Assembly (NCBI GenBank): GCA_031276175.1
Contig: JAISNP010000108.1
Span: 1 to 44,594 of the forward strand
Reading direction: 5' to 3'
Source of the DNA: Tannerella sp.
GTDB lineage: Bacteria; Bacteroidota; Bacteroidia; Bacteroidales; Tannerellaceae
Length of the DNA stretch: 44,594 bases
The position numbers were made by a program, and so were the translations under genes. Of the stretch, positions 7,389 to 36,060 are shown piece after piece (the first letter of the stretch is position 1; every line of letters begins with the position of its first letter). The notes under the pieces were generated by a model, which was given only the letters and a program-made list of their open reading frames with translations, had not been told where the DNA came from and ran no database searches.

Positions 7389-7654
7389 GGATTTCATGTT
7401 TTAACATTTATCACATGTGTGATAACTTCCATCACATGTATGATAACTTCCATCACATGTGTGCTAACTTCTATCACATGTGTGCTAACTTTCATCACAT
7501 GTGTGATAACTTTCATCACATGTGTGATAACTTCTATCACATGTGTGATGACTTTCATCACAAGTGTGATGATTTCTATTTCATGTGAAATGACTTTCAT
7601 TACAAGTGTGATGATTTCTATCACATGTGTGATAAATCCTGTTTCACGAGAAAT
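7389..7654. repeat. Tandem array, 21-bp period, dyad core ATCACA-TG-TGTGAT
   Basis: Units begin at 7410, 7431, 7452, 7473, 7494, 7515, 7536, 7557, 7578, 7599 and 7620, exactly 21 bases apart, with degenerate edge units at about 7389 and 7641. Each has a 14-base core with six-base arms around a central pair, typically ATCACATGTGTGAT, then a 7-base spacer such as AACTTCT. The unit at 7578 reads ATTTCATGTGAAAT: both arms changed and the symmetry stayed. The edge unit at 7641 (GTTTCACGAGAAAT) keeps TTTC/GAAA. The array fills the divergent gap between the sigma gene and the glycerophosphodiesterase gene. Because 21 is a multiple of 3, it is open in several frames and yields false ORFs. Confidence 0.95.
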
Positions 7655-7718
7655 TACCGCATCATCTCGGAGATAAAAAGAAGAAGCATCATATCCGATA
7701 TACATTGAAAATTATCCG

Positions 7719-7726
7719 TACTTTTG
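7719..7726 (+). promoter_or_regulatory. Bacteroidota -7 promoter box before the GDPD gene
   Basis: TACTTTTG matches TAnnTTTG and lies 19 bases before the ATG at 7746. A TTGA about 14 bases upstream is a poor -33 match. Confidence 0.5.
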
Positions 7727-7745
7727 CGCGAGTAAAAAATTTCAT

Positions 7746-8669
7746 ATGATGAGGATACGCAAAACGGTTACAATCATTTTCGCAGCAAGCCTGTTTGTTT
7801 CCTGCGGCGGAAGCCGGGAGGGAAAGGCCACGCGGCATGTCATTCCGTGCGGGACGTATGCAGACGTAGAACAGTATTTTCGCTACACGGCCGGATGCCG
7901 CATGATTGTGAGCGGGCACAGGGGAGGCAATGCGCCCGGATTTCCCGAAAACGCGATCGAAACGTTTGAATATACACTGAGTTACATCGAATCATTTTTC
8001 GAGATCGACCCGCAGATGACGAAAGACAGCGTGATTGTCCTCATGCACGACGAAACCATCGACCGGACTACTACCGGCACGGGAAAAGTGGCGGATTATA
8101 CTTTCGACGAACTGCAACAATTCAATCTGGTAGACAGATGGGGAAACACAACACCTTTCAAGATTCCGTCGGCAGAAAATGTAATCCGCTGGAGTCAAGG
8201 GAAAACAATCCTCAATTTCGACAAGAAAAGCGTCACGCGCGATGTGCTGATTCCTCTGGTAAAAAAATGCGGAGCGGAAAATGTGATTTACACGGTACAC
8301 AATGCCGGGGATGCGCTTTTCTGTTACCGGATCGACAACCACGCGCATTTCTCGGCATGGATTAAAGACATGGATGCGCTTCGGGAATATGACGAAACAG
8401 GTATTCCCTGGTCGCATTTCATCGCTTATGTGGAAAGCGCGACGATGAATCCCGACAATCAGGCGCTTTACGATGCGCTGCACGAACGCGGCGTAAGATG
8501 TATGATTGCCCTCTCGCCCTCGCACGACCGCTTACCCTCGTCCGAAGCACGCATCGCAAAATACAGGGAAGAAATCGCAAAAAAACCGGACATCATCGAA
8601 ACGGATTACCCCGTCGAATTTGCCGGGCTTTACCGGCTTGACAAACAAAAGATAATAATAACCGATTAA
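7746..8669 (+). CDS. Glycerophosphodiester phosphodiesterase family lipoprotein
   Basis: This 307-residue protein belongs to the GDPD TIM-barrel family, whose members hydrolyse glycerophosphodiesters or related phosphodiesters. The lipobox LFVSC places the lipidated residue at Cys20. Family motifs are intact: SGHRG with His58, PEN at 67-69, the metal ligands in EID (Glu86, Asp88) and LMHDETIDRTTTGTG with His101. The C-terminal half (MIALSPSHDRLP, IIETDYP) also fits. An alternative ATG lies one codon in. The DUF1080 gene follows after 12 bases on the same strand, so the two are probably cotranscribed. The likely substrate, a phospholipid head group or a phosphorylated glycan, cannot be decided. 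Confidence 0.9.
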   Translation: MMRIRKTVTIIFAASLFVSCGGSREGKATRHVIPCGTYADVEQYFRYTAGCRMIVSGHRGGNAPGFPENAIETFEYTLSYIESFFEIDPQMTKDSVIVLMHDETIDRTTTGTGKVADYTFDELQQFNLVDRWGNTTPFKIPSAENVIRWSQGKTILNFDKKSVTRDVLIPLVKKCGAENVIYTVHNAGDALFCYRIDNHAHFSAWIKDMDALREYDETGIPWSHFIAYVESATMNPDNQALYDALHERGVRCMIALSPSHDRLPSSEARIAKYREEIAKKPDIIETDYPVEFAGLYRLDKQKIIITD

Positions 8670-8681
8670 AAACAGATAGAT

Positions 8682-9950
8682 ATGAAAAGTAAATTGAACA
8701 TTCGGATTGTATGTATGACAATGATTGTGTGTTTCGGCGCATGTACGGAAAAACAAAACACGCTGACGCCGGAAGAAACGGCCGTCGGGTGGCAACTCCT
8801 CTTCGACGGCGAAACGCTGAACGGCTGGCGCGACTATAACGGGACGACGCTGACGAAACCCTGGCACGTGGTGGACGGATGTATTCAGGCAAACGGCAGC
8901 GGCAGCGATTCGGACGGCTACATCGTGACCGACCGGCAATACGAAAACTTCGAACTGTCGTGGGACTGGAAATTGTCCGAAGGCGGCAACAGCGGGATGC
9001 TTTACCACGTAGTCGAACGCCCGCAGTTTACGGTGCCCTACGTCACCGGGCCGGAATATCAGCTGATAGACGAGCCGAACTTCCCCGAACCGCTCGAAGA
9101 ATGGCAAAAGCTGGGCGTGGATTACGCAATGTATCTGCCGGACAAGCACGTGATGAAAGTAAACCCTGCCGGAGAGTGGAACAATGCAAAAATCCGCTTC
9201 GACAACGGGCATGTGGAACATTGGCTCAACGGAGTGAAAATCCTTGAATTCGAAGCTTGGACAGACGACTGGTTTGCACGCAGGAACAGCGGGAAATGGG
9301 CTGATGCCCCCGAATACGGCCTGGCGAAAAAGGGCGTCATCTGCCTGCAGGACCACGGCTATCCGGCTTCGTTCCGCAACATCAAAATTCGCGAATTGCC
9401 GCGCAAAACAAAAGAAGTCTCGCTCTTCAACGGCGCCGACCTGACCGGCTGGGAGGCCTACGGCACGGAACTTTGGTACGTGAAAGACGGCTTGCTGATC
9501 TGCGAAAGCGGCGCGGACAAAAAATACGGGTACCTTGCCACTCGTGAATACTACGACGATTTCGACCTGAGCGTCGAATTTAAGCAGGAGGCCGACGGCA
9601 ATTCCGGCGTATTCATACGTTCGTTCATCGAAGAAGACGTAAAAATAAACGGCTGGCAGGTCGAAGTAGCGCCCAAAGGCTATGACACGGGCGGCATCTA
9701 CGAATCTTACGGACGCGGCTGGCTCGTACAAATCCCGGACGAAAAAGAAAATATACTGAAAGAAGGCGACTGGAATACGTTGCGCATCAAAGTACAGGGC
9801 AACCACGTCGCCACGTGGCTGAACGGCGAAGAGATGGTCAACCTGAACGACGACAAAATCGGAGCCGCTCAGGGACGTATCGCCCTTCAGATTCACGACG
9901 GAGGCGGCATCAAAGTGCTCTGGCGGAATTTACTGATAAAGAGTTTGTGA
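8682..9950 (+). CDS. Lipoprotein with two DUF1080 (3-keto-disaccharide hydrolase-like) domains
   Basis: This 422-residue protein has the lipobox CFGAC (Cys21) and two copies of the DUF1080 concanavalin-like fold. Copy 1 spans about 35-225 (LLFDGETLNGWRDYNG, then GNSGMLYHVVE, then GPEYQLIDE). Copy 2 spans about 240-420 (SLFNGADLTGWEAYG, then GNSGVFIRSF, then WQVEVAPKGYDTGGIYE). Members of this family in gut Bacteroides hydrolyse 3-keto-glucosides and work with Gfo/Idh/MocA dehydrogenases; one such enzyme may be the Tat protein cut off at the left edge, but that is inference. The two copies are clearly diverged, so they may differ in role. Confidence 0.88.
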   Translation: MKSKLNIRIVCMTMIVCFGACTEKQNTLTPEETAVGWQLLFDGETLNGWRDYNGTTLTKPWHVVDGCIQANGSGSDSDGYIVTDRQYENFELSWDWKLSEGGNSGMLYHVVERPQFTVPYVTGPEYQLIDEPNFPEPLEEWQKLGVDYAMYLPDKHVMKVNPAGEWNNAKIRFDNGHVEHWLNGVKILEFEAWTDDWFARRNSGKWADAPEYGLAKKGVICLQDHGYPASFRNIKIRELPRKTKEVSLFNGADLTGWEAYGTELWYVKDGLLICESGADKKYGYLATREYYDDFDLSVEFKQEADGNSGVFIRSFIEEDVKINGWQVEVAPKGYDTGGIYESYGRGWLVQIPDEKENILKEGDWNTLRIKVQGNHVATWLNGEEMVNLNDDKIGAAQGRIALQIHDGGGIKVLWRNLLIKSL

Positions 9951-10002
9951 ATACTTGGCAACCTTGCGCCCGGGCTTTTTCGTGATATTCGGATACAAAA
10001 AA

Positions 10003-10043
10003 AATGATAACGCTACAATACGGCAGGATTCGCTCCCGTTATC
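10003..10043. other. Inverted repeat downstream of the DUF1080 gene
   Basis: GATAACG near 10003 is complementary to CGTTATC near 10037-10043, separated by about 26 bases. It lies in the 258-base gap after the DUF1080 gene. It has no T-run and could be a transcript-end structure. Confidence 0.35.
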
Positions 10044-10072
10044 ATCCCGGGACATGAAATAAATAAGGTGTA

Positions 10073-10144
10073 AAGATATTCCGCAAAGACCACGAAAAAA
10101 AAGGAACCTGCGAGCCTGTCGGTGTCTTTGCGGGATATTTTTTG
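10073..10144 (+). terminator. Probable rho-independent terminator after the DUF1080 gene
   Basis: An imperfect long stem pairs ATATTCCGCAAAGACCAC (left arm, 10076-10093) with GGTGTCTTTGCGGGATAT (right arm, 10121-10138), followed by seven T on the plus strand. The loop is A-rich. It separates the GDPD/DUF1080 pair from the outer-membrane protein gene at 10209, which probably has its own promoter. Confidence 0.6.
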
Positions 10145-10208
10145 TTGTAAATTGCGTATCCCCCGTTTCCGTGTTTTTTATATGTAACTCAACATAAACA
10201 AATATTTT

Positions 10209-12686
10209 ATGACACGCATGTTTTCTCCGGCCGAAAGGCTTAAAATGATTCTCCTTGCGACGGTTTGCTGCATGGCGCCGGTTTGCATCGCTCAAACGAA
10301 CAGCGGCAAAGACGCGATTCACCTGAAGGGACAAATCCTCATCGAAGGAAGTAACGAAGACATTCCGTATGCCACGATTACCGTACAGGATGACAGCGCG
10401 CAGGTCATCTCGCGACAAGTCTCGGACGGCAACGGCCGGTTCGATTTTTCGGTAAGCAGGAGCAGTTCGTACCTGCTGACCGTATCGGCCGTCGGCTACG
10501 TCACCGCTACGGAAACAGTCGCCGTCGCCGTCGGCGAAACGGCAAAAAACCTCGGCCACATCCTGATGAAAGAAGGCATCGAACTGACGGAAGTAAGCGT
10601 AACGGCGCAGAAGCCGCTGATCAAGAGCGACCCCGACAAGCTGGTGTACAGCGTCGAAGCCGATCCCGAAGCGAAAACAAATACGCTGCTCGAAATCATC
10701 CGCAAAGTACCGCTGCTCAGCGTGGATTCCGAAGACAACGTGACGCTCAACGGACAAAGCAACTACAAGGTGCTGGTCAACGGGAAAAGCTCAAGCCTGA
10801 TGTCCAACAATTTCAAAGAAGTAATTAAAAGTATGCCCGCCAATTCCATCAAAGACATTGAAGTGATTACCAACCCGTCGTCCAAATACGAAGCCGAAGG
10901 CGTGGGCGGCATCATCAACATCATCACAACCAAAGACAGGACGGACGGCTACACCGGCAGCGTCGGCGTGAACGCCACTTCGCGCGGCGGATACGGCGCA
11001 AATACCTACGTGGCTGCCAACCTCGGCAAATTCACCTTTTCGACCAACCTTTTTATCAACAAACACACGTCGACTCCCACCGAAAACTCATCGCACCGCG
11101 TCAATATGATGAGCGACACGTATCATTATACCGACACAAAGGGAGAATCACGCATCCGGGGCAGCGGCAACAGCCTCAATTTTGAAGCGGGATACGAAAT
11201 AGACACCTTCAACCTGATAAGCGCTGCGGCATGGGGATACTTCGGCGACAACACCTTCAGCAATTTCGCCTCGACAAGCGAACACGACATACAGCACAAT
11301 CCCGTGCGCAGATACACCAACCGGATGGAGGGCGAAAACAGCTACGGATACATTTCGGGGAATGTCGACTATCAACGCAGTTTCGCAAAGAAAGACAAGA
11401 CGTTTACGGCTTCGTACAAAATAGACTATAATCCCGACAATTCGAAAAACGGGACGAACGTGGACGGCGAACTGAACTACATTACTTACCGCCAGATTTC
11501 GGATAATCGCTCCTCCGGGCAAACGCATACGTTCCAGCTGGATTATTTCGACCCGATCTCGGAAAATCACCAGTTCGAAACGGGCGTGAAAGGCATCTAC
11601 CGGCGGAATTTCAGCGAAACAAACATCTCCGTCTTCGATACGACGGACAATCGCTGGGAAGAAGACCCAAGCCGCCTCAACGACCTTGACTACGACCAGT
11701 ATATCATGGGCGTGTATACCGGCTATCTTTTCAAACACAACAAAATAAGCGCCAAGGGGGGCGCACGGGCGGAATATACGTGGAACGACGGCGTTTTCAA
11801 ATCGAACGTGCATACGAAGTTCAATCATACGCTTTTCAATCTCATCCCCTACATCAACCTCACCTATGCCCTCCAACCTGCGCAAACGGTCAAGCTCTCC
11901 TATACGCAACGGCTCTACCGGCCGGGCATCTGGGCGCTGAATCCTTATGTGAACGACCTCGACCCGCTGAATATCAGCTACGGCAATCCGAAACTGGATG
12001 CCGAAGTATCTCATTCGTTTTCCGCTTCATACGGACAGTTTTCGCCCAAGTTCAACATAAACATCGACCTGAACGGTTCCGTCACAAATAATTCCATTGA
12101 GCAATATTCGTTTATCGACGAAAACAGCATACATCATTCGACTTACGGCAACATCGGCTCCAACCGGCGCTACGGCGCGAACACGTTTATCTCATTCCGT
12201 CCGGACGGGAAATGGAACATATACGGCAACGGGCGGGTAAATTACGTCGTCCTCGACTCGAACAACGAACTGGCACACCACAACGAAGGATGGATGTACG
12301 GATATTCGTTCGGCATACGGTGGACGGCATGGAAAGGCGGTTCCGTCTCGGCCAACGCGGGCGGCAATTCGCCATGGATTCAGTTGCAGGGCAAAGGCTC
12401 GTCGTTCAGTTACACCAGCTTCGGCATCACGCAAAAACTGCTGAAAGACAAATTAGACCTTTCCGTATACATGTCCGATCCCTTCTCGCAGAAAATCTAT
12501 TACAGAAGCGAACTGAACGACCCGACCTACACGATGCGTTCCGAAAATTTCAGATGGGGACAAACCGCGCGCATCAGCGTGATATACCGTTTCGGCAAAA
12601 TGAACACAAGCGTAAAAAAGGCGCGTCGCGGCATCAATAACGACGACCAGCGCGAAGGCACACAGGGCGAGGCAACACAGAACTGA
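10209..12686 (+). CDS. TonB-dependent-receptor-like outer-membrane beta-barrel protein
   Basis: This 825-residue protein has a signal peptide (MTRMFSPAERLKMILLATVC, cleaved near IAQ at about 29). A carboxypeptidase-regulatory-like domain follows at about 38-120 (IHLKGQILIEGSNEDIPYAT). A plug-like domain with LTEVSVTAQKPLIKSDPDKL and VLVNGKSSSLMSNN precedes GVGGIINIITTK. The rest is a barrel of alternating aromatic strands ending in SVIYRFGKMNTSVKKARRG. It resembles the family usually annotated outer membrane beta-barrel family protein (OMP_b-brl_3) rather than SusC, and no SusD partner is adjacent. It probably imports or binds a small ligand; substrate unknown. The C-terminus carries a hydrophilic tail (DDQREGTQGEATQN) after the last strand, which is unusual for a barrel. 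Confidence 0.88.
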   Translation: MTRMFSPAERLKMILLATVCCMAPVCIAQTNSGKDAIHLKGQILIEGSNEDIPYATITVQDDSAQVISRQVSDGNGRFDFSVSRSSSYLLTVSAVGYVTATETVAVAVGETAKNLGHILMKEGIELTEVSVTAQKPLIKSDPDKLVYSVEADPEAKTNTLLEIIRKVPLLSVDSEDNVTLNGQSNYKVLVNGKSSSLMSNNFKEVIKSMPANSIKDIEVITNPSSKYEAEGVGGIINIITTKDRTDGYTGSVGVNATSRGGYGANTYVAANLGKFTFSTNLFINKHTSTPTENSSHRVNMMSDTYHYTDTKGESRIRGSGNSLNFEAGYEIDTFNLISAAAWGYFGDNTFSNFASTSEHDIQHNPVRRYTNRMEGENSYGYISGNVDYQRSFAKKDKTFTASYKIDYNPDNSKNGTNVDGELNYITYRQISDNRSSGQTHTFQLDYFDPISENHQFETGVKGIYRRNFSETNISVFDTTDNRWEEDPSRLNDLDYDQYIMGVYTGYLFKHNKISAKGGARAEYTWNDGVFKSNVHTKFNHTLFNLIPYINLTYALQPAQTVKLSYTQRLYRPGIWALNPYVNDLDPLNISYGNPKLDAEVSHSFSASYGQFSPKFNINIDLNGSVTNNSIEQYSFIDENSIHHSTYGNIGSNRRYGANTFISFRPDGKWNIYGNGRVNYVVLDSNNELAHHNEGWMYGYSFGIRWTAWKGGSVSANAGGNSPWIQLQGKGSSFSYTSFGITQKLLKDKLDLSVYMSDPFSQKIYYRSELNDPTYTMRSENFRWGQTARISVIYRFGKMNTSVKKARRGINNDDQREGTQGEATQN

Positions 12687-12784
12687 ACGGCTGTCCGTGA
12701 GATGCCGGCTCACATATAAAATATACGTTGGGGCGAGATTCTATCCCGTGCAATCTATCCGAGACAAGTCCGTAATTTACAATT

Positions 12785-12818
12785 TTACCCCTCCCACAAC
12801 ACATCGTGGCAGGGGTAA
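12785..12818. terminator. Stem-loop downstream of the outer-membrane protein gene
   Basis: TTACCCCTCCCAC (12785-12797) pairs with GTGGCAGGGGTAA (12806-12818) over 13 positions with one mismatch and an 8-base loop. It lies 99 bases after the stop at 12686. No T-run follows, so termination is only one possibility. Confidence 0.4.
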
Positions 12819-12827
12819 TATGCTTGA

Positions 12828-12926
12828 GAAAGAGCTTTTGATACAGCCCTGATTCTTGCCGTATTTCCGGAATTATACGCCATCGTGGCGCTTGCCGTAG
12901 TCTTCCTGATCGTGGGCGCGCTGTAA
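12828..12926 (+). pseudogene. atpK: 3' fragment of a V-type ATPase proteolipid (subunit K) gene
   Basis: The frame ending in TAA at 12926 reads ERAFDTALILAVFPEL then YAIVALAVVFLIVGAL, and is closed upstream by a TGA at 12825-12827. The pattern of a hydrophobic helix with P-E followed by a second hydrophobic run is that of the last helix of V-type c-ring subunits, where the glutamate binds the ion. No start, no first helices and no other ATPase genes are present. I read it as the torn-off end of an operon whose last gene is normally this subunit, left by a rearrangement in this repeat-rich zone. Confidence 0.55.
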
Positions 12927-13021
12927 ATGAACGGCAAAAAACACCTCCCCACGGAAGAGACGGATGTTTTCCTGTCCTTCCTACGCTTTAACGCCTTCCG
13001 GAGAGCCTCTAACGGATAAGC

Positions 13022-13201
13022 CCAAAATGTCCATTAGGAACATTAATTCATTTGAAAGGCAGTTGTTTTTTGACGAATTAATGCCTTGTATTTGTCTTGT
13101 TATTAGCAAATTGCAATCTTGCTTTTCTAATGGTGTCCATTAGGAATCTAAAGAAAACAAGCACTCATTATAAGATGTTTACCATCTAATGGACATTTTG
13201 G
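13022..13201. mobile_element. 180-bp MITE-like element with 16-bp terminal inverted repeats
   Basis: The left end CCAAAATGTCCATTAG (13022-13037) is the exact reverse complement of the right end CTAATGGACATTTTGG (13186-13201). In the middle, CTAATGG-TGT-CCATTAG (about 13128-13144) repeats the inner part of the ends, so the element looks like two hairpin-bounded halves back to back. It has no coding capacity. It abuts the coding sequence of an IS3-like orfB exactly after the codons for QAYYK, so it interrupts that gene. No clear target-site duplication is visible. Confidence 0.7.
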
Positions 13202-13671
13202 ATTTATAATATGCCTGCTCCGTCACGCCAAACAGCCTGCAAAGAACCGCTGCCGGATATGTCTTCGGGTTCTTTGCACGCAGGTTTACTACCGTTTGGC
13301 GCCGACTTTTTTTCGTATCGTAATCTTAAACTTACTCTCTGCCGCGTTGATCATCTCATCGTATGCCTCCGCTCGCATCCGCTCGTGTTTAAGCTGAGAC
13401 TGCAAACGGACAATCTCCGCCCGAAGGGTTTTCATGTCATTACCTTGAGGCTCGCCGGCAGGCGACGTTCTGTTTGATGCTTAGGCTTTTTCTTTTTCAT
13501 CGGAACGGTTTTTCCCGCGTTTTCCGTCCTAAAGACAACTATCCATCTTGATACCGTAGCATGACCTGCCGGGATAATCCGGAATATGCGACTTTCACCA
13601 TAACCATACTCTCGGTGTAATCCGATCACTTCTTTAAAATACGCTCGTTGTTTCTTTGTTCGTAATTCCAT
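13202..13671 (-). pseudogene. IS3-like transposase remnant (orfA frameshifted, orfB cut after 30 codons)
   Basis: From the ATG at 13671 the frame encodes a helix-turn-helix orfA (MELRTKKQRAYFKEVIGLHR, ATVSRWIVVF) and stops early at 13432. A shift of frame near 13440 restores the expected leucine-rich tail (NDMKTLRAEIVRLQSQLKHE, DEMINAAESKFKITIRKK) to a TAG near 13291. A second frame then encodes the start of orfB (NLRAKNPKTYPAAVLCRLFG, VTEQAYYK) and runs into the 180-bp inverted-repeat element. The catalytic DDE part of orfB is missing. The orfA shift could be an old mutation or a normal recoding site of the IS; the truncated orfB makes the copy dead either way. Confidence 0.75.
13228..13297. 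other. Large imperfect inverted repeat in the IS3-like remnant
   Basis: GCCAAAC...CCTGCAAAGAACC on the left faces GGTTCTTTGCACGCAGG...GTTTGGC on the right. It spans the orfA/orfB junction on the minus strand and could be an RNA structure that stimulates frameshifting between the two reading frames, as in other IS3 elements. Confidence 0.4.
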
Positions 13672-13683
13672 TGTTAACTCTTT

Positions 13684-13870
13684 TGTGAGTCAACTTTTTC
13701 TAGCGAAAGACGGTTTGGATATCGCCGGAAACGGTTTACCTTTGCCGGACTGTCATGGGTTTCCTTCCGGGCTACGCTCTCCGGTCAACCCCTGACAAGG
13801 ATAAGACGCAAAGAGTAAACAAATATCAGGTATAGTTATTAATCCGAGTCAACTCTTCTACGCGATAAGG
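13684..13870. repeat. Two direct copies of an IS-end-like sequence
   Basis: GAGTCAACTTTTTCTAGCGA near 13688 and GAGTCAACTCTTCTACGCGA near 13847 are near-identical in the same orientation, each just upstream (minus strand) or downstream of an orfA remnant. They look like the same terminal sequence of two related IS copies. Nothing coding is visible between them. Confidence 0.4.
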
Positions 13871-13886
13871 CTGCTAAACAGTCAAC

Positions 13887-14051
13887 CTAAATCAGGAAAA
13901 GACAGTCGCGGTAAATCCAACTGCCGACGGTATCTCTGCTTACCTGAAACCGACAGGTTACCATAGATACCAATTCATTGCTGTTGTAATACGCCATTAG
14001 TGCCCGCTCCTTAAACCCTTCCGAATAAAATTTCCTTTTTCGCTTTACCAT
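13887..14051 (-). pseudogene. Second transposase orfA remnant
   Basis: From the ATG at 14051 the product reads MVKRKRKFYSEGFKERALMA and then SNELVSMVTCRFQVSRDTVG, a helix-turn-helix of transposase orfA type (IS3/IS66-like). After GSWIYR the sequence leaves the family and stops at 13887, so it is truncated at about 54 residues. An upstream in-frame ATG at 14147 adds residues that do not resemble a transposase. It is part of the IS graveyard and unlikely to be functional. Confidence 0.55.
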
Positions 14052-14171
14052 ATCTTTACTGCTTTTTAATGTTTCAGGACAATACACCTTTCCCTGAAGA
14101 ACCATAAAAACTGATGGGAGCCCGACATCACGTCGTACTCCCACCATTCAACAATGCTTTCTATAAGGGAC

Positions 14172-14220
14172 AACCCTGAGAGGGTCATCTATACAGGGCA
14201 ACCGGTCATCAACCCTGTAT
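14172..14220. other. Pair of short palindromes (REP-like)
   Basis: ACCCT-GAG-AGGGT lies at about 14173-14185, and ATACAGGG (14191-14198) pairs with CCCTGTAT (14213-14220). They precede an AT-rich stretch (about 14230-14590) in which I see no gene, only very short ORFs of 20 and 29 codons near 14300-14450. Confidence 0.4.
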
Positions 14221-14594
14221 GCTTGATACAATTTTAAAAATGTAATTCTTTATCATATTACCTTACTAATTCTATTGCAATATTACTACGTTTTCCCGAT
14301 ATGAAAAACATTATTAATTCAAAATATCTGAAAGAAAAGTTACAAGACAGGAAAGGTGCATGATTAACAAAGAGAAGCCACTTAATAATTTTATAAGATT
14401 ATACTGTAAAAAACGAGATATGCGATATATTTATAAATTTTCCGGATAATAAACGGCGTTTATTTGCTGAAAGAATTAGATTTTGTCGAAAAAATAGTTT
14501 AGCAATAAAATAATAACGCGAAAAAAAAAAAGTTGAAGACGAAAAAATACGCATAAAAAAGAGGCGAGCCATCCATTAAATGCTCCGTTTTCTC

Positions 14595-14665
14595 TTTCCC
14601 CGATAAGGTATGGCAATTGTTCGACGGCTTCGGCTTCGAGTATGTTTTTGCGGATACATTCCCTC
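14595..14665 (-). pseudogene. 71-bp fragment of the 3' end of ispG
   Basis: This segment matches positions 31425-31495 of the intact ispG gene at all but about five of 71 bases. On the minus strand it encodes RECIRKNILEAEAVEQLPYL, against RECIRKNIPEAEAVEQLLHL in the real protein. Similarity stops abruptly on both sides. It is embedded in a longer open frame (14476-14721) that is otherwise meaningless. I interpret it as a displaced scrap of an ispG copy, not a gene. Confidence 0.85.
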
Positions 14666-14759
14666 TTGTTTTCTCGCTTTTCTCTCGTTTGTTTTAGATA
14701 TTTTGAATTACAATTAGTCACAGGATGGGTTTTTGTTTTTTTGTGTTCCTCATCAGCTT

Positions 14760-15253
14760 TTTCGGCATCTTGTTGTTACGCGCTCGTTCAGACCGGGGAG
14801 CAAGCTCGGGGCAATAGATTGCTTACATCGCTATCAGGGTGTTGTTTATGCAAGGAGTAAGATTTACAGATTTCCTGACGCTTTGTGCTTGCCGAAAAAC
14901 GATGTCAAAGCCCAAGTCGAACAAATCGGTTTTGCCCACATGAAAAAAGTGCCGAAAGGCAAAATCAGCGCTGTATTCTACGATATGACTACGCTGCATT
15001 TTGAAGCCGCAGATGAAGATGAACTTCGTAAGATCGGTTTTTCAAAAGGCGGCAAACACCGGCGTCCGCAGACTTTTCCCGGATTACTTGTCGAAGGCGG
15101 CGGTAATCCGATCAGATACGAGCTATTCGAAGGCAACATAATTTATCGGCGTATTAGAAACGATACGGCAAAAGTTCGGCATTGGTAAGCCAACCGTAAA
15201 TTGCCGATTGGGGGTTGCCGTCCGGAAAAAATGGCAACACCGATTCTTTTTGA
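14760..15253 (+). pseudogene. Degenerate IS1634-like DDE transposase
   Basis: The plus strand encodes the N-terminal part of an IS1634-type transposase: VVTRSFRPGSKLGAIDCLHR, then VFYDMTTLHFEAADEDELRK, then GFSKGGKHRRPQTFPGLLVE and RYELFEGNI. The first catalytic Asp lies in VFYDMTT. After FEGNI the frame is lost, and about 90 bases on, a different frame resumes with KFGIGKPTV and then, after another one-base shift, VIADWGLPSGKNGNTDSF, which corresponds to the family's VADAGLLS block with the second catalytic Asp. The C-terminal half is absent. With at least two frameshifts and a deletion it is dead. Confidence 0.75.
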
Positions 15254-15317
15254 GTATAAACATGTATTCGTAAACACGGGGAAGCCGCCTTGCCATCGGC
15301 AATACGCTCCGCGCGCT

Positions 15318-19181: not shown

Positions 19182-19250
19182 ATCGGACAACCGTTCCTGC
19201 CGACTTTGGGCTAACCCGGATGTCCCGGCGACGAAGGCGGGAGGGTGTTT

Positions 19251-19754
19251 TTGTTCCCGGAAGTTCCGGCACATAAAATTTCCGAAGCATTTTTGTTCCC
19301 GGAGACTTCGGAACACAAAATTTCTTGAGCATTTTTGTTCCCGGAGACTTCGGAACGCAAAATTTCTTGAGCATTTTTGTTCCCGGAGACTTCGGAACAC
19401 AAAATTTCTTGAGCATTTTTGTTCCCGGAGACTCCGGAACACAAAATTTCTTGAGCATTTTTGTTCCCGGAGACTTCGGAACACAAAATTTCTTGAGCAT
19501 TTTTGTTCCCGGAGACTTCGAAACACAAAATTTCTTGAGCATTTTTGTTCCCGGAGACTTCGGAACACAAAATTTCTTGAGCATTTTTGTTCCCGGAACC
19601 TCCGGGACGAAAATTTCCCTGAGCATTTTTGTTCCCGGAGACTCCGGGACGAAAATTTCCCTGAGCATTTTTGTTCCCGGAGACTCCGGGACGAAAAATT
19701 CCCCGAGCATTTTTGTTCCCGGAGGTTCCGGGATGAAAAATGCTCGGGGAAGTC
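19251..19754. repeat. Tandem array, 12 units of 42 bp (2 x 21), hairpin in each
   Basis: TTGTTCCC recurs at 19251, 19293, 19335, 19377, 19419, 19461, 19503, 19545, 19587, 19629, 19671 and 19713, exactly 42 bases apart. Each unit has a GC-rich dyad (for example TCCCGGAG-A-CTCCGGGA) and an AT-rich part with AAAATTT and GAGCATTTTT. Two unit types occur: earlier units with CTTCGGAACAC and later ones with CTCCGGGACGA. The dyad centre varies (AAGTT, AGACT, AACCT, AGGTT between CCGG arms), mostly keeping pairing. The array sits in the convergent gap between the relA-like gene and the lipoprotein gene at 19831. It is open in several frames and produces false ORFs on both strands. Confidence 0.95.
19701..19749. 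other. 49-bp near-perfect hairpin that closes the 42-bp array
   Basis: CCCCGAGCATTTTT (19701-19714) is the exact reverse complement of AAAAATGCTCGGGG (19736-19749), and between them TCCCGGA and TCCGGGA pair as well. The final repeat unit is thus followed by an inverted copy of the spacer. In either direction it would form a strong stem and could end transcription from both convergent genes. Confidence 0.8.
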
Positions 19755-26785: not shown

Positions 26786-26863
<78 letters not shown>

Positions 26864-28061: not shown

Positions 28062-28088
28062 AATGCATATCATTTTTTTTAAACCTGC

Positions 28089-28096
28089 CAAAGTTA
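28089..28096 (-). promoter_or_regulatory. Bacteroidota -7 promoter box before rubrerythrin
   Basis: The minus strand reads TAACTTTG (TAnnTTTG), 27 bases before the ATG at 28061; a TTTA about 20 bases further upstream is a partial -33 match. This decides the start of the gene. Confidence 0.6.
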
Positions 28097-28226
28097 CGTC
28101 TTATTTTATTTGTAAAGTATCGTGGCAAGTCCTATTCTTTGTTAAAAAATCGATGTGTTTTTTATTCATCTATTAATTGTAATAAATTACTTACACAATC
28201 GTGTCCGAAAGTTTTACCGCAGTAAT

Positions 28227-28234
28227 TATCTTTG
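28227..28234 (+). promoter_or_regulatory. Bacteroidota -7 promoter box before the SulP gene
   Basis: TATCTTTG (TAnnTTTG) lies 38 bases before the ATG at 28273 and downstream of an in-frame ATG at 28201, so the downstream start is favoured. Confidence 0.55.
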
Positions 28235-28272
28235 CGCGGATTTTACGGATTGAATACAAAAAAAGAGGAAGA

Positions 28273-29976: not shown

Positions 29977-29999
29977 ATATCACATTATAATATATACAT

Positions 30000-31131
30000 A
30001 TGATTACATCAGACCAATTACGCAATGTGTTGGAACGCGAGCAGGCGTTGAGGGGGTACCTTTGACGTGGACGGGAAAATTGTCCGTCTGGAAGAAGAGA
30101 CGCTGCGGACGCAGGATCCGGGTTTCTGGAACGATCCGAAACGCGCCGAGGCGCAGATGAAGGTCGTCAAGGACCTGAAGAAATGGATCGACCTGTACGG
30201 GGAAGTGCACAACGCCGCCGAAGAACTGAATCTGGCGTGCGAATATGCAAAAGAAGGAGTCATCACGGAGCCGGAACTTGAGGCGGCATACGCGCAGGCC
30301 GTGTCGCTCCTTGAGCGCCTTGAGTTCAGAAACATGCTTCGCGAAGAGGGCGACCAGATGAGTTGCGTCCTGAAAATTAATTCCGGCGCGGGAGGCACCG
30401 AGAGCCAGGATTGGGCGGCGATGCTGATGCGCATGTACATGCGGTGGGCGGAAGCAAGCGGATATAAATTGACGGTAAACCATTTGCTGGAAGGCGAAGA
30501 GGCGGGCATCAAGAGCGTAACGATGCGGATAGAGGGCGATTATGCCTATGGCTACCTGAAGGGCGAAAACGGCGTACACCGTCTGGTTCGCGTTTCGCCG
30601 TTCAATGCGCAGGGGAAGCGGATGACTTCGTTCGCATCGGTGTTTGCCGCCCCGCTCGTGGACGACTCTATTGAAATAGAGATTAATCCGGCCGACTATA
30701 CATGGGATACGTTCCGTTCGGGCGGCGCGGGCGGGCAGAATGTGAACAAGGTGGAAACGGGCGTGCGCCTGCGCTACAATTACAGGGATCCCGATACGGG
30801 CGAAACGCGCGAAATCCTGATAGAAAACACCGAAAGCCGCTCGCAAACGGATAACCGCGAGAATGCGATGCGGCTGCTCCGCTCCATGCTGTATGACATG
30901 GAATTGCAACGGCGGCTGGCTGAAAAAAACAAAATAGAAGCGGGTAAGAAGAAAATAGAATGGGGTTCGCAAATCAGGAGCTACGTTTTTGACGATCGCC
31001 GCGTGAAAGATCACCGCACCAATTATCAGACATCGGACGTAAACAGCGTGATGGACGGCAAAATCGACGGGTTTATCAAGGCCTATCTGATGGAGTTCGC
31101 CGAGAAACAGGGGCAGCAGGCCTCGCGGTGA
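30000..31131 (+). CDS. prfB: Peptide chain release factor 2 with programmed +1 frameshift
   Basis: RF2 recognises UGA and UAA stop codons and triggers peptide release. The gene starts at 30000 (MITSDQLRNVLEREQALRGYL), reaches an in-frame TGA at 30063-30065, and continues in the +1 frame from GAC at 30064, giving about 376 residues. The recoding site AGGGGG-TAC-CTT-TGA-C is the classic autoregulatory RF2 signal: when RF2 is scarce, ribosomes shift and make more. The long part carries the RF2 codon-recognition tripeptide SPF (RLVRVSPFNAQGKR) and the catalytic GGQ (SGGAGGQNVNKVE). Starting the gene at 30067 would miss the regulatory frame. Confidence 0.97.
30051..30066 (+). promoter_or_regulatory. 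RF2 programmed frameshift site
   Basis: AGGGGG (30051-30056) acts as an internal Shine-Dalgarno three bases before the slippery CTT-TGA-C (30060-30066). The in-frame TGA sensed by RF2 is at 30063-30065. Confidence 0.95.
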
Positions 31132-31221
31132 GCCGTTTCACGCTTCATGAAGGCGGCCTGTCGGATATGCGTTTTGTGAAGCGCCGCATTTCTTCCGAAG
31201 CTTCCGCTTTACCTCATTTTT

Positions 31222-31380
31222 ACTTAAGTCGGAGCCGTTTTTACTTAAGTAAAAGTCATTTTTACTTAAGTCGGAGCCGCTTTTACTTAAGTCGGAATAA
31301 TTTTTACTTAAGTCAAAATCGCTTTTACTTAAGTCGGAGCCATTTTTACTTAAGTCGAAATCGCTTTTACTTAAGTCAAA
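31222..31380. repeat. Tandem array, 8 units of 21 bp, core ACTTAAGT
   Basis: The perfect 8-bp palindrome ACTTAAGT occurs at 31222, 31243, 31264, 31285, 31306, 31327, 31348 and 31369, always 21 bases apart. All eight cores are identical, while the 13-base spacers vary (CGGAGCC, AAAAGTC, CGGAATA, CAAAATC and so on, then TTTT or TTTTT). In the second unit the palindrome extends to 16 bases, TTTTACTTAAGTAAAA. The array fills the convergent gap between prfB and ispG and ends a few bases before the ispG stop codon at 31384. A long spurious frame (31128-31433) runs through it. Confidence 0.95.
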
Positions 31381-31383
31381 ACC

Positions 31384-33246
31384 TCATAATTTTTCGGATA
31401 TTTCTTTACACGGCCTGTTTGCGCTTTCCCTGATAAGGTGCAGCAATTGTTCGACGGCTTCGGCTTCGGGTATGTTTTTGCGGATACATTCCCTGCCTTT
31501 GTAGAGGCTGATGCGTCCGTGTCCTGCGCCGACGTAACCGTAATCGGCGTCCGCCATTTCGCCGGGGCCATTGACGATACATCCCATAACGGCGATTTTC
31601 AGCCCTTTCAGGTGTGAAGTGGCGGCTTTTACGCGGGCGAGGGTCGCCTTCAGGTCGTAAAGCGTACGTCCGCAGCCCGGACACGAGATGTATTCGGTTT
31701 TGCTGATGCGCGCACGCGCAGCCTGCAGGATGGCAAACATATATCGCTCCGCCGCGAAGGCCTCCGTATGCTGCGCATTGCACAGGAAGATGCCGTTGCC
31801 GATGCCATCCGTCAGCGCCGCGCCGAAGTCGGCGGCAGCTTTCAACTGGAGGCTTTCGAGGTCTGTCTCGCAGTAATGCCGGCGGAGGACGACGGGCGCG
31901 TCGCAGCCGGCCTCTTTCAGGCGGAGGATCAAGGCGCGCATTTCGGCTACGGGGTTGGGGTGGCTGCTGTTGAAGACCATGACGGTGGCCTTGTCCTGCC
32001 TGAACAAATCGAGCACGGATGCGTTGATATCCCTGTATTCCAGTTCGACAAACTTTGCCGATGCCCGGCAGTCTTTTATTTTCGATACATTCCCGGCGTG
32101 GAAATACGGGAACACGCCCGGCCGGTCGTCGCAGTAATCCGCGTCGACAAGCAGCGGGGCGACAGGTTGAGCGGCCGTATCCGGGCTGTTTCGACCGATA
32201 TAGATAAAGTCGGGCGGCACGTCTCCGGTCGAGACGGCGATTTCGCCGGGATGACGCCAAGATATGACTGCCGGATGATTGTGGCCGCCGATTCCCGGCA
32301 CTTCGCGTGTCTCGCGGCGATAATCCGCGTCGGGCGCATATGTGTCGGGCGCGTCGACCGGTTCGTGATTTTCGCGCAGCAGGATGTAGTCGACTAATTT
32401 CCGGGCGACGGGTATTTCCGTTTCGGGCGGTTCGCTCAGCGATACGCGGACGGTGTCGCCAATCCCGTCGGCAAGCAGCGCGCCGATGCCGACGGCGCTT
32501 TTGATGCGTCCGTCTTCGCTGTCGCCCGCTTCGGTCACGCCCAGATGCAGCGGATAGTGCATGTCTTCTTCATCCATCGTTCGCACCAGCAGGCGCACGG
32601 TTTGCACCATTACTGTCGTGTTGGAGGCTTTTATGGAAATGACCGCATCGTTGAAATCCATCTCTCGGCAGATGTGTAAAAACTCCATGCAGGAAGCCAC
32701 CATGCCTTCGGGCGTATCTCCGTAGCGGCTCATGATGCGGTCCGACAGCGAGCCGTGGTTTACGCCGATACGGATGGCCGTCCCGTAGCGGCGGCAGAGT
32801 TGCAGGAAAGGAATGAACCGTTCGCGGATTTTTGCAATGTCGCTTTCATATTCCCCTCCCCCGCCGGCATGACGGGCCTGGCGAAATGATTGGGCATTGT
32901 CGACGTAGTTGCCCGGATTGATACGGACTTTTTCGACGCTTGCGGCAGCCGCGTCGGCGGCTTTGGGGTTGAAATGAATGTCGGCTATCAGTGGCGTATC
33001 GTAACCTTTGCTGCGCAACGCTTCCCGGACAGCGGCCAGATTGCGGGCTTCGCGTTCGCCCTGCGCCGTGAAGCGGACATAGTCAGCCCCCGCTTCAATG
33101 ATGCGGACGGCTTGCGCCACGGCGGCGGCCGTATCCATCGTCGAGACGTCGGCCATAGACTGGATGCGGATGGGATTTTTCCCGCCCAGAGGCGTGCCGC
33201 CGATGCGCACTTCCGTCGACCGGCGGCGCTGATAACGGATGTTCAA
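31384..33246 (-). CDS. ispG: 4-hydroxy-3-methylbut-2-enyl diphosphate synthase, long form
   Basis: This 620-residue enzyme performs the penultimate step of the MEP isoprenoid pathway, using a [4Fe-4S] cluster. It is the long form with an extra domain between the TIM barrel and the cluster domain, typical of Bacteroidota, Chlamydia and plants. The barrel shows QSMADVSTMDTAAAVAQ, ADIHFNPKAA and VRINPGNYVD; the cluster domain shows CPGCGRTLYDL and MGCIVNGPGEMADADYGYVG, supplying the three Cys and the Glu ligand. The start appears to be TTG at 33246, overlapping the purE stop as TTGA, since no ATG lies in a plausible place. It is the third gene of gcvH-purE-ispG. A fragment of its 3' end occurs at 14595-14665. 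Confidence 0.95.
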   Translation of the reverse strand: MNIRYQRRRSTEVRIGGTPLGGKNPIRIQSMADVSTMDTAAAVAQAVRIIEAGADYVRFTAQGEREARNLAAVREALRSKGYDTPLIADIHFNPKAADAAAASVEKVRINPGNYVDNAQSFRQARHAGGGGEYESDIAKIRERFIPFLQLCRRYGTAIRIGVNHGSLSDRIMSRYGDTPEGMVASCMEFLHICREMDFNDAVISIKASNTTVMVQTVRLLVRTMDEEDMHYPLHLGVTEAGDSEDGRIKSAVGIGALLADGIGDTVRVSLSEPPETEIPVARKLVDYILLRENHEPVDAPDTYAPDADYRRETREVPGIGGHNHPAVISWRHPGEIAVSTGDVPPDFIYIGRNSPDTAAQPVAPLLVDADYCDDRPGVFPYFHAGNVSKIKDCRASAKFVELEYRDINASVLDLFRQDKATVMVFNSSHPNPVAEMRALILRLKEAGCDAPVVLRRHYCETDLESLQLKAAADFGAALTDGIGNGIFLCNAQHTEAFAAERYMFAILQAARARISKTEYISCPGCGRTLYDLKATLARVKAATSHLKGLKIAVMGCIVNGPGEMADADYGYVGAGHGRISLYKGRECIRKNIPEAEAVEQLLHLIRESANRPCKEISEKL

Positions 33247-33749
33247 TTGGTTTTGTGTTTGAACGTCACTGTCGCCAGTTCTTCGTTGGCCGCGATTATT
33301 TTTCCCTTCAACTCTTCTCTGTGCGCGTGCAGGCGTTTTTGAAGCGCTTCGTCGCCGAGCGAAAGTATTTGTGCGGAGAGAATGGCGGCGTTCAATGCGG
33401 CATTGATGCCTACGGTGGCTACGGGGATGCCCGGAGGCATTTGCACGATGGAAAGGAGGGCGTCCATGCCGCCGAGCGTCGCGTGGACGGGTACGCCGAT
33501 GACGGGCAGCGTCGTCATGGAGGCAATCACGCCGCAGAGATGCGCCGCCATCCCTGCCGCGGCGATAATTACCTTAATGCCCCGGTCTTCGGCGCCTTCG
33601 GCAAACCGCGCCACTTCGCCGGGGGTGCGGTGTGCCGAGAGCGCGTGCATTTCGAACGGGATTTCCAGCCCGTCCAGAAAACGGGCTGCCTTTTCCATTA
33701 CGGGAAGGTCGGAGGCGCTCCCCATGATAATGCTGACGACGGGTGTCAT
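33243..33749 (-). CDS. purE: N5-carboxyaminoimidazole ribonucleotide mutase
   Basis: This 168-residue enzyme moves the carboxyl group of N5-CAIR to give CAIR in purine synthesis. Class I motifs are clear: IIMGSASDLPVME near the N-terminus, ALSAHRTPG with the catalytic His, AAAGMAAHLCGVIAS, and TLPVIGVPV followed by GGMDALLSIVQMPPGIPVAT. It follows gcvH after 7 bases and its stop overlaps the TTG start of ispG, so the three are translated from one message. No purK lies nearby. Confidence 0.97.
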   Translation of the reverse strand: MTPVVSIIMGSASDLPVMEKAARFLDGLEIPFEMHALSAHRTPGEVARFAEGAEDRGIKVIIAAAGMAAHLCGVIASMTTLPVIGVPVHATLGGMDALLSIVQMPPGIPVATVGINAALNAAILSAQILSLGDEALQKRLHAHREELKGKIIAANEELATVTFKHKTN

Positions 33750-33756
33750 GGATGTG

Positions 33757-34134
33757 CTATTCGACGGTTTGCCGGTAATCGTCGGCCGAGAGCAGCGTAT
33801 CCAGTTCGGACAGGTCGGAAGGTTTTACCCTGATAATCCATCCTGCCTGATAGGGGGCTTCGTTGACGAGTTCGGGATTGTTTTCGAGTTCGGGATTCAC
33901 GGCCAGCACTTCGCCCGAAACGGGCATAAACAGGTCTGATACTGTTTTGACGGCTTCGATCGTTCCGAACACATCTTCTTTGCCAAGGGTTTCGCCTTCG
34001 GCAGTAATATCTACAAAGACGATTTCGCCCAGTTCGCTCTGCGCATAGTCGGTGATTCCGACGTATGCGACTTCTCCTTCTATGCGAATCCACTCATGGT
34101 CGCGCGTGTACTTCAAATCGGTTGGGAAATTCAT
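33757..34134 (-). CDS. gcvH: Glycine cleavage system H protein
   Basis: This 125-residue lipoyl carrier shuttles the aminomethyl group between the P, T and L proteins. Family features are [29 protein letters not shown] and the lipoyl site [18 protein letters not shown] with Lys63. It is the first gene of gcvH-purE-ispG; a TAACTTTG promoter box lies 43 bases upstream, within the 3' end of rpoN. The P and T proteins are not in this window. Confidence 0.97.
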
Positions 34135-34177
34135 TTTGTCAAGTTGTTAAATGTTTTATTTATGTTTAAACCGGCCG

Positions 34178-34185
34178 CAAAGTTA
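34178..34185 (-). promoter_or_regulatory. Bacteroidota -7 promoter box before gcvH-purE-ispG
   Basis: The minus strand reads TAACTTTG (TAnnTTTG), overlapping the last codon of rpoN and 43 bases before the gcvH ATG, so the operon can be read independently of rpoN. Confidence 0.5.
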
Positions 34186-35637
34186 TAATTCTTTTCTGAG
34201 CCTTGCAACCGATATGCCCATTTGTTCGCGGTATTTGGCCACGGTGCGCCGCGCGGCGACGTATCCTTTTTCTTTCAGCATGGCCGAGAGGGTATCGTCG
34301 GTGAGGGGAGCGCGTTTGTCTTCGGAGTCGATACATTCTTTCATGATTTGTTTCACCATGCGGGTGGAAATTTCTTCGCCGCTATCGTTTTGCGTCGATT
34401 CGGAGAAGAAGAACTTCAGGGGATAGATGCCGAAATTGGTTTGAACGTATTTGCTGTTGCTTACGCGCGAGATTGTGGAGATGTCGTATCCGGAATGTTG
34501 CGCCACGTCTTTAAGGATCATGGGATGCAGGCGCGATTCGTCGCCGGTGAGGAAGAAGTCTTTTTGCAGCAGGATTATGGCCTGCATGGTGCGTTGAAGT
34601 GTTTCCTGACGTTGCTTGACGGAATCAATAAACCATCGGGCGGCGTCGAGTTTTTGCCTGACGAACTGAACGGCATCGCGCATCTCGGCCGTGCGGTTGG
34701 CTTTGTTTTTCGTGTAATCGTTCACCATGTCCATGTATTCCCGGCTGATATGCAGGTCGGGTATGCCGCGCTGATTCATGATGAGCGTCAGGTCTTCGTT
34801 GTGGGTTTCCACGATGAAGTCGGGCATTACCTGTACGGACGTATCGGATACGTTTGCCACGCTGTTGCCCGGTTTGGGGTTCAACATTGTAATCTCGTGA
34901 AGAATTTGTTTCATTTCGTTTTCGTCGAGATTCATCGCTCGCCTGATTTTATCGAAATGCTTTTTGGCGAAAGCATCGAAATAATCTTTCAGCACGGTAA
35001 CGGCCGATTGCGTGCAGGGGGTTTGCTGTTTTTTTTCCAATTGCAGCAGAAGACATTCCTGCAGGCTGCGGGCAGCGATGCCTGCGGGATCGAAATCCTG
35101 AATCACGGTAAGCACGGATTGTATGGAAGCCTCGTCGACCTCTTCGCCCGCTTTGAAAATCAGGTCGTCCGTAATAGAAGTCAAGTCGCGCCGGAGATAG
35201 CCGTTGTCGTCGATGTTCCCGATGATGTATTCGCCGATTTTCTTTTCGCGTTCCGACAAGTTGCGCAGTCCGAGCTGTTCGAGCAAGTATTCCTGAAGGG
35301 AAATTCCGCTCGAAAACGGGATTTCTTCGCGGCGATCCTCTCTGTCGTGCATCTCGGCCAGTTTGTAGTAGGGAATATCATCCTCCGTCATGTAGTCGCC
35401 CAGAGACAAATCCACCTCGCCGTCGTCCGCGCTGTTGTTTTCGACCTCGACCGTCTCATTCGATTCGCTGTGTTCCGAAAGAAAATCGCCCCCCTCCTCC
35501 AGTAAGGGATTTTCTTCCAGTTCCTGCTTGATACGGTTTTCCATCTCAATGACGGGAAGCTCCAGCAAACGAACATACTGTATTTGTTGAGGCGAGAGCC
35601 GCTGTTGCAATTTCTGTTGTAATTTCTGCTTAAACAT
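34183..35637 (-). CDS. rpoN: RNA polymerase sigma-54 factor
   Basis: Sigma-54 directs polymerase to -24/-12 promoters that need an ATP-driven activator. I start at the ATG at 35637 (MFKQKLQQKLQQRLSPQQIQ), giving 484 residues; an adjacent ATG at 35640 is equally possible, and the longer frame to 35757 is excluded by a promoter box at 35661. The glutamine-rich activator-responsive region I is at 1-50, an acidic region II follows, then the core-binding domain (GISLQEYLLEQL, DFDPAGIAARSLQECLLLQL), and the C-terminus carries HSGYDISTISRVSNSKYVQT and the RpoN box ARRTVAKYRE. No enhancer-binding activator is encoded in the window. Confidence 0.96.
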   Translation of the reverse strand: MFKQKLQQKLQQRLSPQQIQYVRLLELPVIEMENRIKQELEENPLLEEGGDFLSEHSESNETVEVENNSADDGEVDLSLGDYMTEDDIPYYKLAEMHDREDRREEIPFSSGISLQEYLLEQLGLRNLSEREKKIGEYIIGNIDDNGYLRRDLTSITDDLIFKAGEEVDEASIQSVLTVIQDFDPAGIAARSLQECLLLQLEKKQQTPCTQSAVTVLKDYFDAFAKKHFDKIRRAMNLDENEMKQILHEITMLNPKPGNSVANVSDTSVQVMPDFIVETHNEDLTLIMNQRGIPDLHISREYMDMVNDYTKNKANRTAEMRDAVQFVRQKLDAARWFIDSVKQRQETLQRTMQAIILLQKDFFLTGDESRLHPMILKDVAQHSGYDISTISRVSNSKYVQTNFGIYPLKFFFSESTQNDSGEEISTRMVKQIMKECIDSEDKRAPLTDDTLSAMLKEKGYVAARRTVAKYREQMGISVARLRKEL

Positions 35638-35660
35638 CATTTCTACTTTATCTCGTGTGG

Positions 35661-35668
35661 CAAAATTA
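35661..35668 (-). promoter_or_regulatory. Bacteroidota -7 promoter box before rpoN
   Basis: The minus strand reads TAATTTTG (TAnnTTTG), 23 bases before the ATG at 35637, with TTGG about 20 bases further upstream as a partial -33 box. Confidence 0.55.
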
Positions 35669-35845
35669 CATGAAAACCCCCGGTTATCCAAGTGCGCACA
35701 AGAAAAATCAAGACTGCTCCGGCGCGCTTTATGATTTAAAATGAATATCGCATTCATTCCCCGATAAGTCCGAAATATCTTATTCCCATAGCCTTAAGTT
35801 TGCAATGCGGAGCTAAAACCTGCTCCGGCCGCCCTAACTTTGAGC

Positions 35846-36060
35846 CATTCGGAGCTAACTCCGAGTCATTCGGAGCTAACTACGAGTCATTCGGAGTTAA
35901 CTACGAGTCATTCGGAGTTAACTACGAGCCATTCGGAGTTAACTACGAGCCATTCGGAGTTAGCTACGAGCCATTCGGAGTTAGCTACGAGCCATTCGGA
36001 GTTAACTACGAGCCATTCGGAGTTAACTACGAGCCATTCGGAGTTAGCTCCGAGCGACAA
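35846..36060. repeat. Tandem array, 10 units of 21 bp, dyad TCGGAG-TTAA-CTnCGA
   Basis: CATTCGGAG occurs at 35846, 35867, 35888, 35909, 35930, 35951, 35972, 35993, 36014 and 36035, exactly 21 bases apart; a degenerate unit precedes at about 35825. The 16-base dyad reads TCGGAGTTAACTACGA in five units, TCGGAGCTAACTCCGA in the first, TCGGAGTTAGCTCCGA in the last and intermediate forms elsewhere. Both outer units have perfect six-base arms TCGGAG/CTCCGA, while the inner ones have one mismatched pair but an AGTTAACT centre. The array lies in the divergent gap between rpoN and panB. Confidence 0.95.

Follow-up and report, generated by a model that had tools for sequence, protein, structure and literature searches.

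Intergenic arrays with 21- and 42-bp periods in a Tannerella genome as probable minisatellites of small mobile elements

Results

Four intergenic tandem arrays with units of 21 or 42 bp lie in the window analysed here, the 44,594-nucleotide contig JAISNP010000108.1 of a Tannerella sp. genome (assembly GCA_031276175.1, 2.79 Mb in 145 contigs). We propose, as a probable though not a secure explanation, that these arrays and their many counterparts elsewhere in the genome are minisatellites inside small non-autonomous mobile elements, similar to miniature inverted-repeat transposable elements (MITEs) and of the BrickBuilt kind known from Porphyromonas gingivalis. The arrays form dispersed families; array 4 has a leader in common with its siblings, inverted ends enclose array 1, and one leader accompanies different repeat units. 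Dyads are in excess, their arms are less variable than other parts of the unit, and the period is retained while units turn over, although Tandem Repeats Finder (TRF) favours regular arrays. The arrays are real, unusually abundant features, and probably do not amount to a new boundary code.

Period and dyad symmetry of the arrays

TRF placed array 1 at 7410..7635 (21-bp unit, 10.8 copies, dyad ATCACATGTGTGAT), array 2 at 19248..19724 (42-bp unit, 11.4 copies, dyad CCCGGAGACTCCGGG in some copies), array 3 at 31214..31381 (periods 21, 42 and 63; 21-bp units with ACTTAAGT) and array 4 at 35835..36055 (21-bp unit, 10.5 copies, dyad TCGGAGTTAACTACGA), all on the forward strand. A first-pass annotation of the window had reported the same periods at these places. 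The common 21-bp lattice it described is present in arrays 1, 3 and 4, but not in array 2, where the 42-bp unit has no 21-bp sub-period.

The periods found in the window dominate the wider genome, far in excess of chance. TRF arrays were accepted from at least 80 bp and a score of at least 90, and those with periods of 20–23 or 41–43 bp are called lattice arrays. The own-genome sample of 61 pieces (884,962 bases, window included) consisted of contigs taken largely by number, two of them picked for array-1 matches. Periods that are multiples of 21 bp accounted for 59 of its 86 TRF arrays (27 at 21, 22 at 42, 7 at 63 and 3 at 84), and the five strongest lags in the lag profile were 42, 84, 21, 63 and 105, with 41, 82, 22 and 23 far lower. 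The sample contained 73 lattice arrays (82.5 per Mb, 1.96% of the sequence); five arrays had a 41-bp period.

The congener G023, of which 520 kb of a single contig were sampled, was richer still, with 88 lattice arrays (169 per Mb, 4.87% of the sampled sequence), chiefly of 41–42 bp. It also held three arrays of the heptamer (TAGAGGG)n, each about 95–130 bp long (L281_5, L286_90 and L295_8). Three congeners that were sampled less, G035, G034 and G044, had 3, 4 and 1 multiple-of-21 arrays (10–31 per Mb), and 80 named Bacteroidota loci had two (1.4 per Mb); all period surveys stay within Bacteroidota, and the congener genomes are mostly fragmented assemblies. Under looser limits, 20 of 37 intergenic arrays in the 76 loci without a Tannerella or Tannerellaceae label fell into the same classes (17 at 21–23 bp, three at 41, 42 or 82 bp); these periods thus also occur outside the genus. 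Within arrays, indel bases per substitution were 0.036 in the own genome and 0.094 in G023, ratios that are no proof that the period is actively protected.

The units are frequently symmetrical. A dyad had been claimed for every window array; by letter shuffling, array 1 reached P 0.035, but arrays 2, 3 and 4 missed the 0.05 level (P 0.10, 0.31 and 0.06, respectively), and what stands is an excess across the genome. In that test 36 of 77 arrays had P<0.05, 15 had P<0.01 and 41 were above 0.05. Column shuffling, repeated 40 times, gave a clearer picture: 47 of 64 own-genome arrays had dyads scoring 5 or more, against a shuffle mean of 10.8 (maximum 16), as did 37 of 49 G023 arrays, against a mean of 10.2 (maximum 16). 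Dyads are thus about four times as common as in column-shuffled units.

At this score, copies of a unit differed less in the dyad arms than elsewhere in 41 of 47 own-genome arrays and 28 of 37 in G023. The mean difference (0.055 and 0.040) exceeded all 40 shuffles, barely so in G023, where the shuffle maximum was 0.0389. With a score of at least 6 the differences were similar (0.052 and 0.046) and some shuffles were higher (maxima 0.073 and 0.063), few shuffled arrays reaching that score. Mean variation was 0.053 in arms and 0.108 in spacers in the own genome, and 0.059 and 0.093 in G023. The centre of symmetry is also distinctive: 28.8 of 57 G023 dyads (ties shared) were centred on exactly one unpaired base, compared to 6.9 expected, and dyads with no gap or a one-base centre made up 33 of 57 in G023 and 16.8 of 43 in the own genome. 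One base is too short a loop for a hairpin, so symmetry of this kind suits duplex DNA and not an RNA hairpin. The geometric part of the original observation, namely a period of two or four turns of the helix with frequent dyads in many different sequences, holds with controls in two species, and the period classes recur, more sparsely, in other Bacteroidota.

Two further candidates were rejected. Compensated pairs (30 cells, versus 456 single changes) were twice as frequent as the shuffle mean of 15.5 overall, but compensatory evolution reached P<0.05 in only 3 of 84 arrays. A hidden 21-bp dyad lattice within 42-bp units had given z 7.6 at 21 bp, a misleading value because, in a circular unit, reflection symmetry singles out the opposite point as well. 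Under stricter testing z was 1.8–2.65 at 20.5–21 bp and a larger 3.4 at 15.5 bp (11 own-genome units), and in 21-bp units the opposite point scored 4.6; being weak at 20.5–21 bp and higher elsewhere, these values led us to drop the idea.

Dispersed families, leaders and ends

The unit sequences had been described as unrelated, which did not hold: each window array has siblings, at 4–12 loci, and arrays 3 and 4 fall into one family of seven by single-linkage clustering through other members, although compared directly they match at 13 of 18 positions, inside the shuffle range (maximum 14). A first general comparison of flanks gave scattered similarities that were not read as ends, whereas comparison family by family revealed a leader and a tail.

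The array-4 family comprises 12 loci in the own genome and none in 40 congeners. Of the ten loci examined, seven had the common leader, one had its inner 36 bp alone, and two had similarity on neither side. Pairwise leader alignments span 43–107 bp at 71–96% identity. The best copies close with a common tail, GAGGTATCATATCCGATATACAT, and four copies measure 373–375 bp. By eye, a duplication outside the ends can be read in L320 (ATAAAATAAAA), is less clear in L318 and L321, and is not readable in L319; in another element, L035, TTAAAAGATTAT stands on either side of inverted ends. In the 885 kb, 14 places matched a model of the leader at E<1e-8. The leader adjoins arrays with GTTAAC, CTTAAG, CACGTG and 42-bp units, so a single backbone carries various units with a common lattice.

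Array 4 itself lies in a diverged leader-array element at 35740..36174 (element 4, forward strand), supported by the leader model (match at 35736–35808, E 2.8e-14), by flank similarity (the left flank resembles six sibling loci, the right flank two, over 22–24 bp) and by the tail-end motif at 36152–36174, with 3 mismatches. The longest rpoN reading frame begins within this element (35640–35757); its first codons are probably element sequence, since 29 of 35 long matches in relatives begin at residue 24 or later. Array 3 has four loci in the own genome, of which C143 carries both leader and tail, C15 the leader, and C52 is the remaining sibling; there was one marginal match in 40 congeners. Array 2 matched 10 contigs of the own genome and 6 of 40 congeners. 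The model search found neither leader nor tail at window arrays 2 and 3.

Array 1 is enclosed in a MITE-like element of 382 bp at 7325..7706 (element 1, forward strand). An end-pair search identified its ends, AATGAATATCG (7325–7335) and CGATATACATT (7696–7706), as inverted AATG[A/T]ATATCG. The element matches the tail model (E 2e-5), and its A/T-rich flanks have AAAATTA in common, as judged by eye. Its array has four loci in the own genome, itself included, and one weak match in 20 relatives. The end motif AATGWATATCG, with at most one mismatch, had 87 matches compared to 5 for the reversed motif. Thirteen inward pairs were found, five around a lattice array (array 1 among them), three around neither array nor gene and five overlapping genes; short elements with such ends but no array occur at L045 3550–3731 and L052 4484–4644.

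Dispersed repeats were more frequent in array flanks of the own genome (51 of 118) than in other intergenic windows (115 of 480). The two flanks of one array matched each other in inverted orientation beyond the 99% null at 4 of 63 own-genome arrays and at 9 of 87 arrays of G023. Ends like those of MITE239, a P. gingivalis element whose end sequence is printed in PMC4596501, bracketed 1 array of 73 in the own genome and 2 of 88 in G023. Searches of phages with array 2 and of plasmids with array 1, the two arrays used in this way, gave no match.

Several results weigh against a mobile-element origin of the arrays. The leader was on the expected side at 8 of 76 arrays, and its model had no match in the searched sequence of G023, of the named loci or of other congeners. 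With two mismatches allowed, two-sided ends were in the right orientation at 4 of 73 arrays and in the wrong one at 3 of 73, and ends on one or two sides gave 19 right versus 17 wrong; the proposal that all arrays are elements with AATGWATATCG-type ends thus had no support after orientation control. Flank repeats were hardly enriched in G023 (50/160 versus 70/280), direct flank matches exceeded the same null about as often here (5/63) as inverted ones, and no parent transposase was identified. Mobile ends are therefore seen at a minority of arrays, and common descent alone leaves the same period classes in other genera unexplained.

REP and REPIN elements, which are associated with a RAYT transposase, are dispersed short palindromes between genes. 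The present arrays are likewise dispersed, intergenic and often palindromic, but have a strict tandem period. RAYT-based spread found no clear support: the Y1 transposase family PF01797 gave a single weak match in the own genome (E 2e-6), and matches in 3 of 12 congeners searched with none in the other nine (G023 left out).

Other dispersed sequences were seen. In the own-genome sample (L011–L070) a second family centres on GAGATTCCATCTC, with 12-mers in up to 23 copies, and a stretch similar to it lies to the right of array 2. The 2.6 kb at 12687–15317 has no called gene and, from its sequence, appears to be a larger dispersed repeat, parts of it being 93–94% identical over 457–511 bp to L060 and L055. 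Within it, 78 bp at 14587–14664 are 91% identical to 31417–31494, the 3' end of ispG, and look like a stray gene fragment. A perfect (TC)35 tract lies between genes at 26789–26859, a candidate phase-variable tract; the own-genome sample has other long AG/CT tracts (L033, L060).

Placement and turnover

Genes were called with a simple home-made codon-model script. The window has Bacteroidales-type content (SusC/RagA, FecR, an ECF sigma factor), with no tRNA and no Rfam match above the gathering score. Array 1 separates divergent genes for the ECF sigma factor and a glycerophosphodiester-phosphodiesterase-like protein; array 2, convergent genes, one of the RelA/SpoT family and one with no assigned function; array 3, convergent prfB and ispG; and array 4, divergent rpoN and panB. 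All four are thus at strand switches, and the first-pass annotation had noted that no array lay between co-directional genes. That is true of the window but not of the own-genome sample, where 24 of 57 array-bearing junctions are co-directional. Among the 59 multiple-of-21 arrays, all tandem repeats without spacers, 15 were co-directional, 16 convergent, 15 divergent and one genic, the other 58 being clear of called genes; 12 had no called gene on one side, because they were at the end of a contig or fetched stretch.

A preference for strand switches is nevertheless apparent in the raw counts. Lattice arrays occurred at 33 of 127 strand-switch and 24 of 383 co-directional junctions in the own genome (odds ratio 5.3), and at 31 of 74 and 39 of 250 in G023 (3.9). 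The ratio fell to 2.4 (P 0.007) and 2.1 (P 0.025) among junctions whose non-array space was 100 bp or more, and to 1.6 (P 0.18) and 1.8 (P 0.09) at 150 bp or more. Junctions with less than 50 bp of residual space had arrays in 0 of 216 cases in the own genome and 1 of 92 in G023. At 50–200 bp, convergent junctions of the own genome were still rich, with arrays in 9 of 25 cases, whereas co-directional ones had them in 6 of 97 and divergent ones in 0 of 13. Since the bias shrinks as more junction space is required, much of it reflects exclusion from tight operon junctions, and strand-switch placement is mainly a by-product of that exclusion. A weaker preference may exist beyond the effect of space. 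The suggestion that the arrays mark boundaries or terminate transcripts is weakened accordingly, the junction-space control having removed much of the bias behind it.

Junctions with flanks of at least 300 bp were compared at the 3' end of ispG (28 species), the 5' side of rpoN (25) and the 3' end of the RelA/SpoT-family gene (29). Lattice arrays were present in 6, 4 and 4 species, own genome included, or 14 of 82 in total, with periods of 21, 23, 41, 42 or multiples; two more ispG junctions had repeats at other lags (94; 12–17). The 14 units were alike only at the level of shuffles (mean best match 10.6 versus 10.5 of 18), and 7 of 14 had a dyad at P≤0.05. Four orthologous gene pairs in relatives, compared gene by gene and not base by base, were free of the array found here (three lattice arrays and one genic repeat).

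Discussion

We suggest that a small element would insert in A/T-rich DNA between transcription units, and that a unit within it, some 21 or 42 bp long and in many cases with a dyad, would then be tandemly amplified by slippage or unequal exchange. Homogenization of the copies could give quick sequence turnover with the period kept near two or four helical turns, and many arrays would have lost recognizable ends. That transposition spread all the arrays, and that slippage amplified them, are inferences. The arms may stay constant through the action, on the duplex dyad, of a dimeric protein or of the amplification itself.

The closest parallel is in the same bacterial order. The first-pass annotation knew of no described family defined in this way, and our literature search likewise found no period-defined array class (most subscription papers being beyond reach), but known elements share the period classes. 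For P. gingivalis, PMC4596501 describes BrickBuilt, a MITE with 23-nt repeats, a leader, a tail and 19 intergenic copies, and 464/PgRS, a MITE with 41-nt tandem repeats; it also cites an earlier genome report of 41-, 23- and 22-nt repeats. Our arrays resemble BrickBuilt in having an intergenic tandem array without spacers, a leader and tail at some loci, ends that are often lost, and variable copy number. They differ in that BrickBuilt has one unit family, whereas here there are many, mostly of 21 or 42 bp, at about 80–170 arrays per Mb in two species; the ends of element 1 also differ from the printed BrickBuilt ends. The likeness to 464/PgRS is in the 41-nt period, seen in many G023 arrays and five here. 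We therefore regard the arrays as working like elements of the BrickBuilt kind, to which arrays 1 and 4 probably belong, and do not assign them to BrickBuilt itself.

What could hold the period and the dyads? One answer is selection on the lattice: sites for a dimeric DNA-binding protein, spaced by 21 or 42 bp on one face of the helix and bound cooperatively, would serve nucleoid structure or insulation. This is possible but rather unlikely, and it is compatible with a mobile-element origin. It would account for the dyad excess and calmer arms in two species, for the duplex-like one-base centres of G023, and for lattice arrays at 14 of 82 species-junctions whose units are no more alike than shuffles. 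Against it, indels within arrays are not strikingly rare, the other 68 species-junctions have no lattice array, and the units are too diverse for one sequence-specific protein. HU-family matches are slightly more numerous in the genus (6 here, 5–9 in four congeners) than in eight genomes of other families (1–5), but do not track array density, the array-poor G035 and G044 having 8 and 9 and the array-rich G023 having 5. Hybrid two-component regulators of Bacteroides have direct-repeat sites with a mean spacing of 21 bp, or two turns of the helix, on the same face (PMC3878776). Those are pairs of sites at sugar-utilization promoters, while the present arrays have about 10 copies at any type of junction; such sites are a possible rival for short promoter arrays, not for these.

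The arrays might instead be neutral minisatellites, arising by slippage wherever no gene is harmed, with a period inherited from a few ancestral repeats. Families that unite 21-, 41- and 42-bp units by single linkage, indel rates that fit a slow drift of period, and sporadic presence at orthologous junctions would all be expected. We regard this as decidedly unlikely, since dyad arms are calmer than the rest beyond column shuffles, compensated pairs are rare, unlike the outcome of frequent arm-to-arm correction, and the same period classes recur in other genera. Terminators acting in both directions, or arrays of RNA hairpins at the ends of transcripts, are highly improbable. Convergent junctions of the own genome do often have arrays (17 of 62), and the array 2 dyad is bordered by T- and A-runs, but divergent junctions have them as often (16 of 65), many dyads leave no room for a loop, being gapless or centred on one base, and no array in the window matched Rfam.

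The favoured explanation, amplification within small mobile elements, leaves a question for Bacteroidales biology, which is why unrelated repeat units share a helical period and conserved dyads. An unlikely but far-reaching answer would be a class of satellite DNA defined by geometry, in which phased duplex dyads are selected through a dimeric chromatin protein and lattice-bearing elements are retained between transcription units across Bacteroidales. In practical terms, such arrays may be a cause of broken assemblies, given how many of the multiple-of-21 arrays lie at the ends of contigs or fetched stretches. The findings suggest that the isolated 23- and 41-nt repeats of P. gingivalis belong to one structural class that extends over Bacteroidales and is hypertrophied in one genus.

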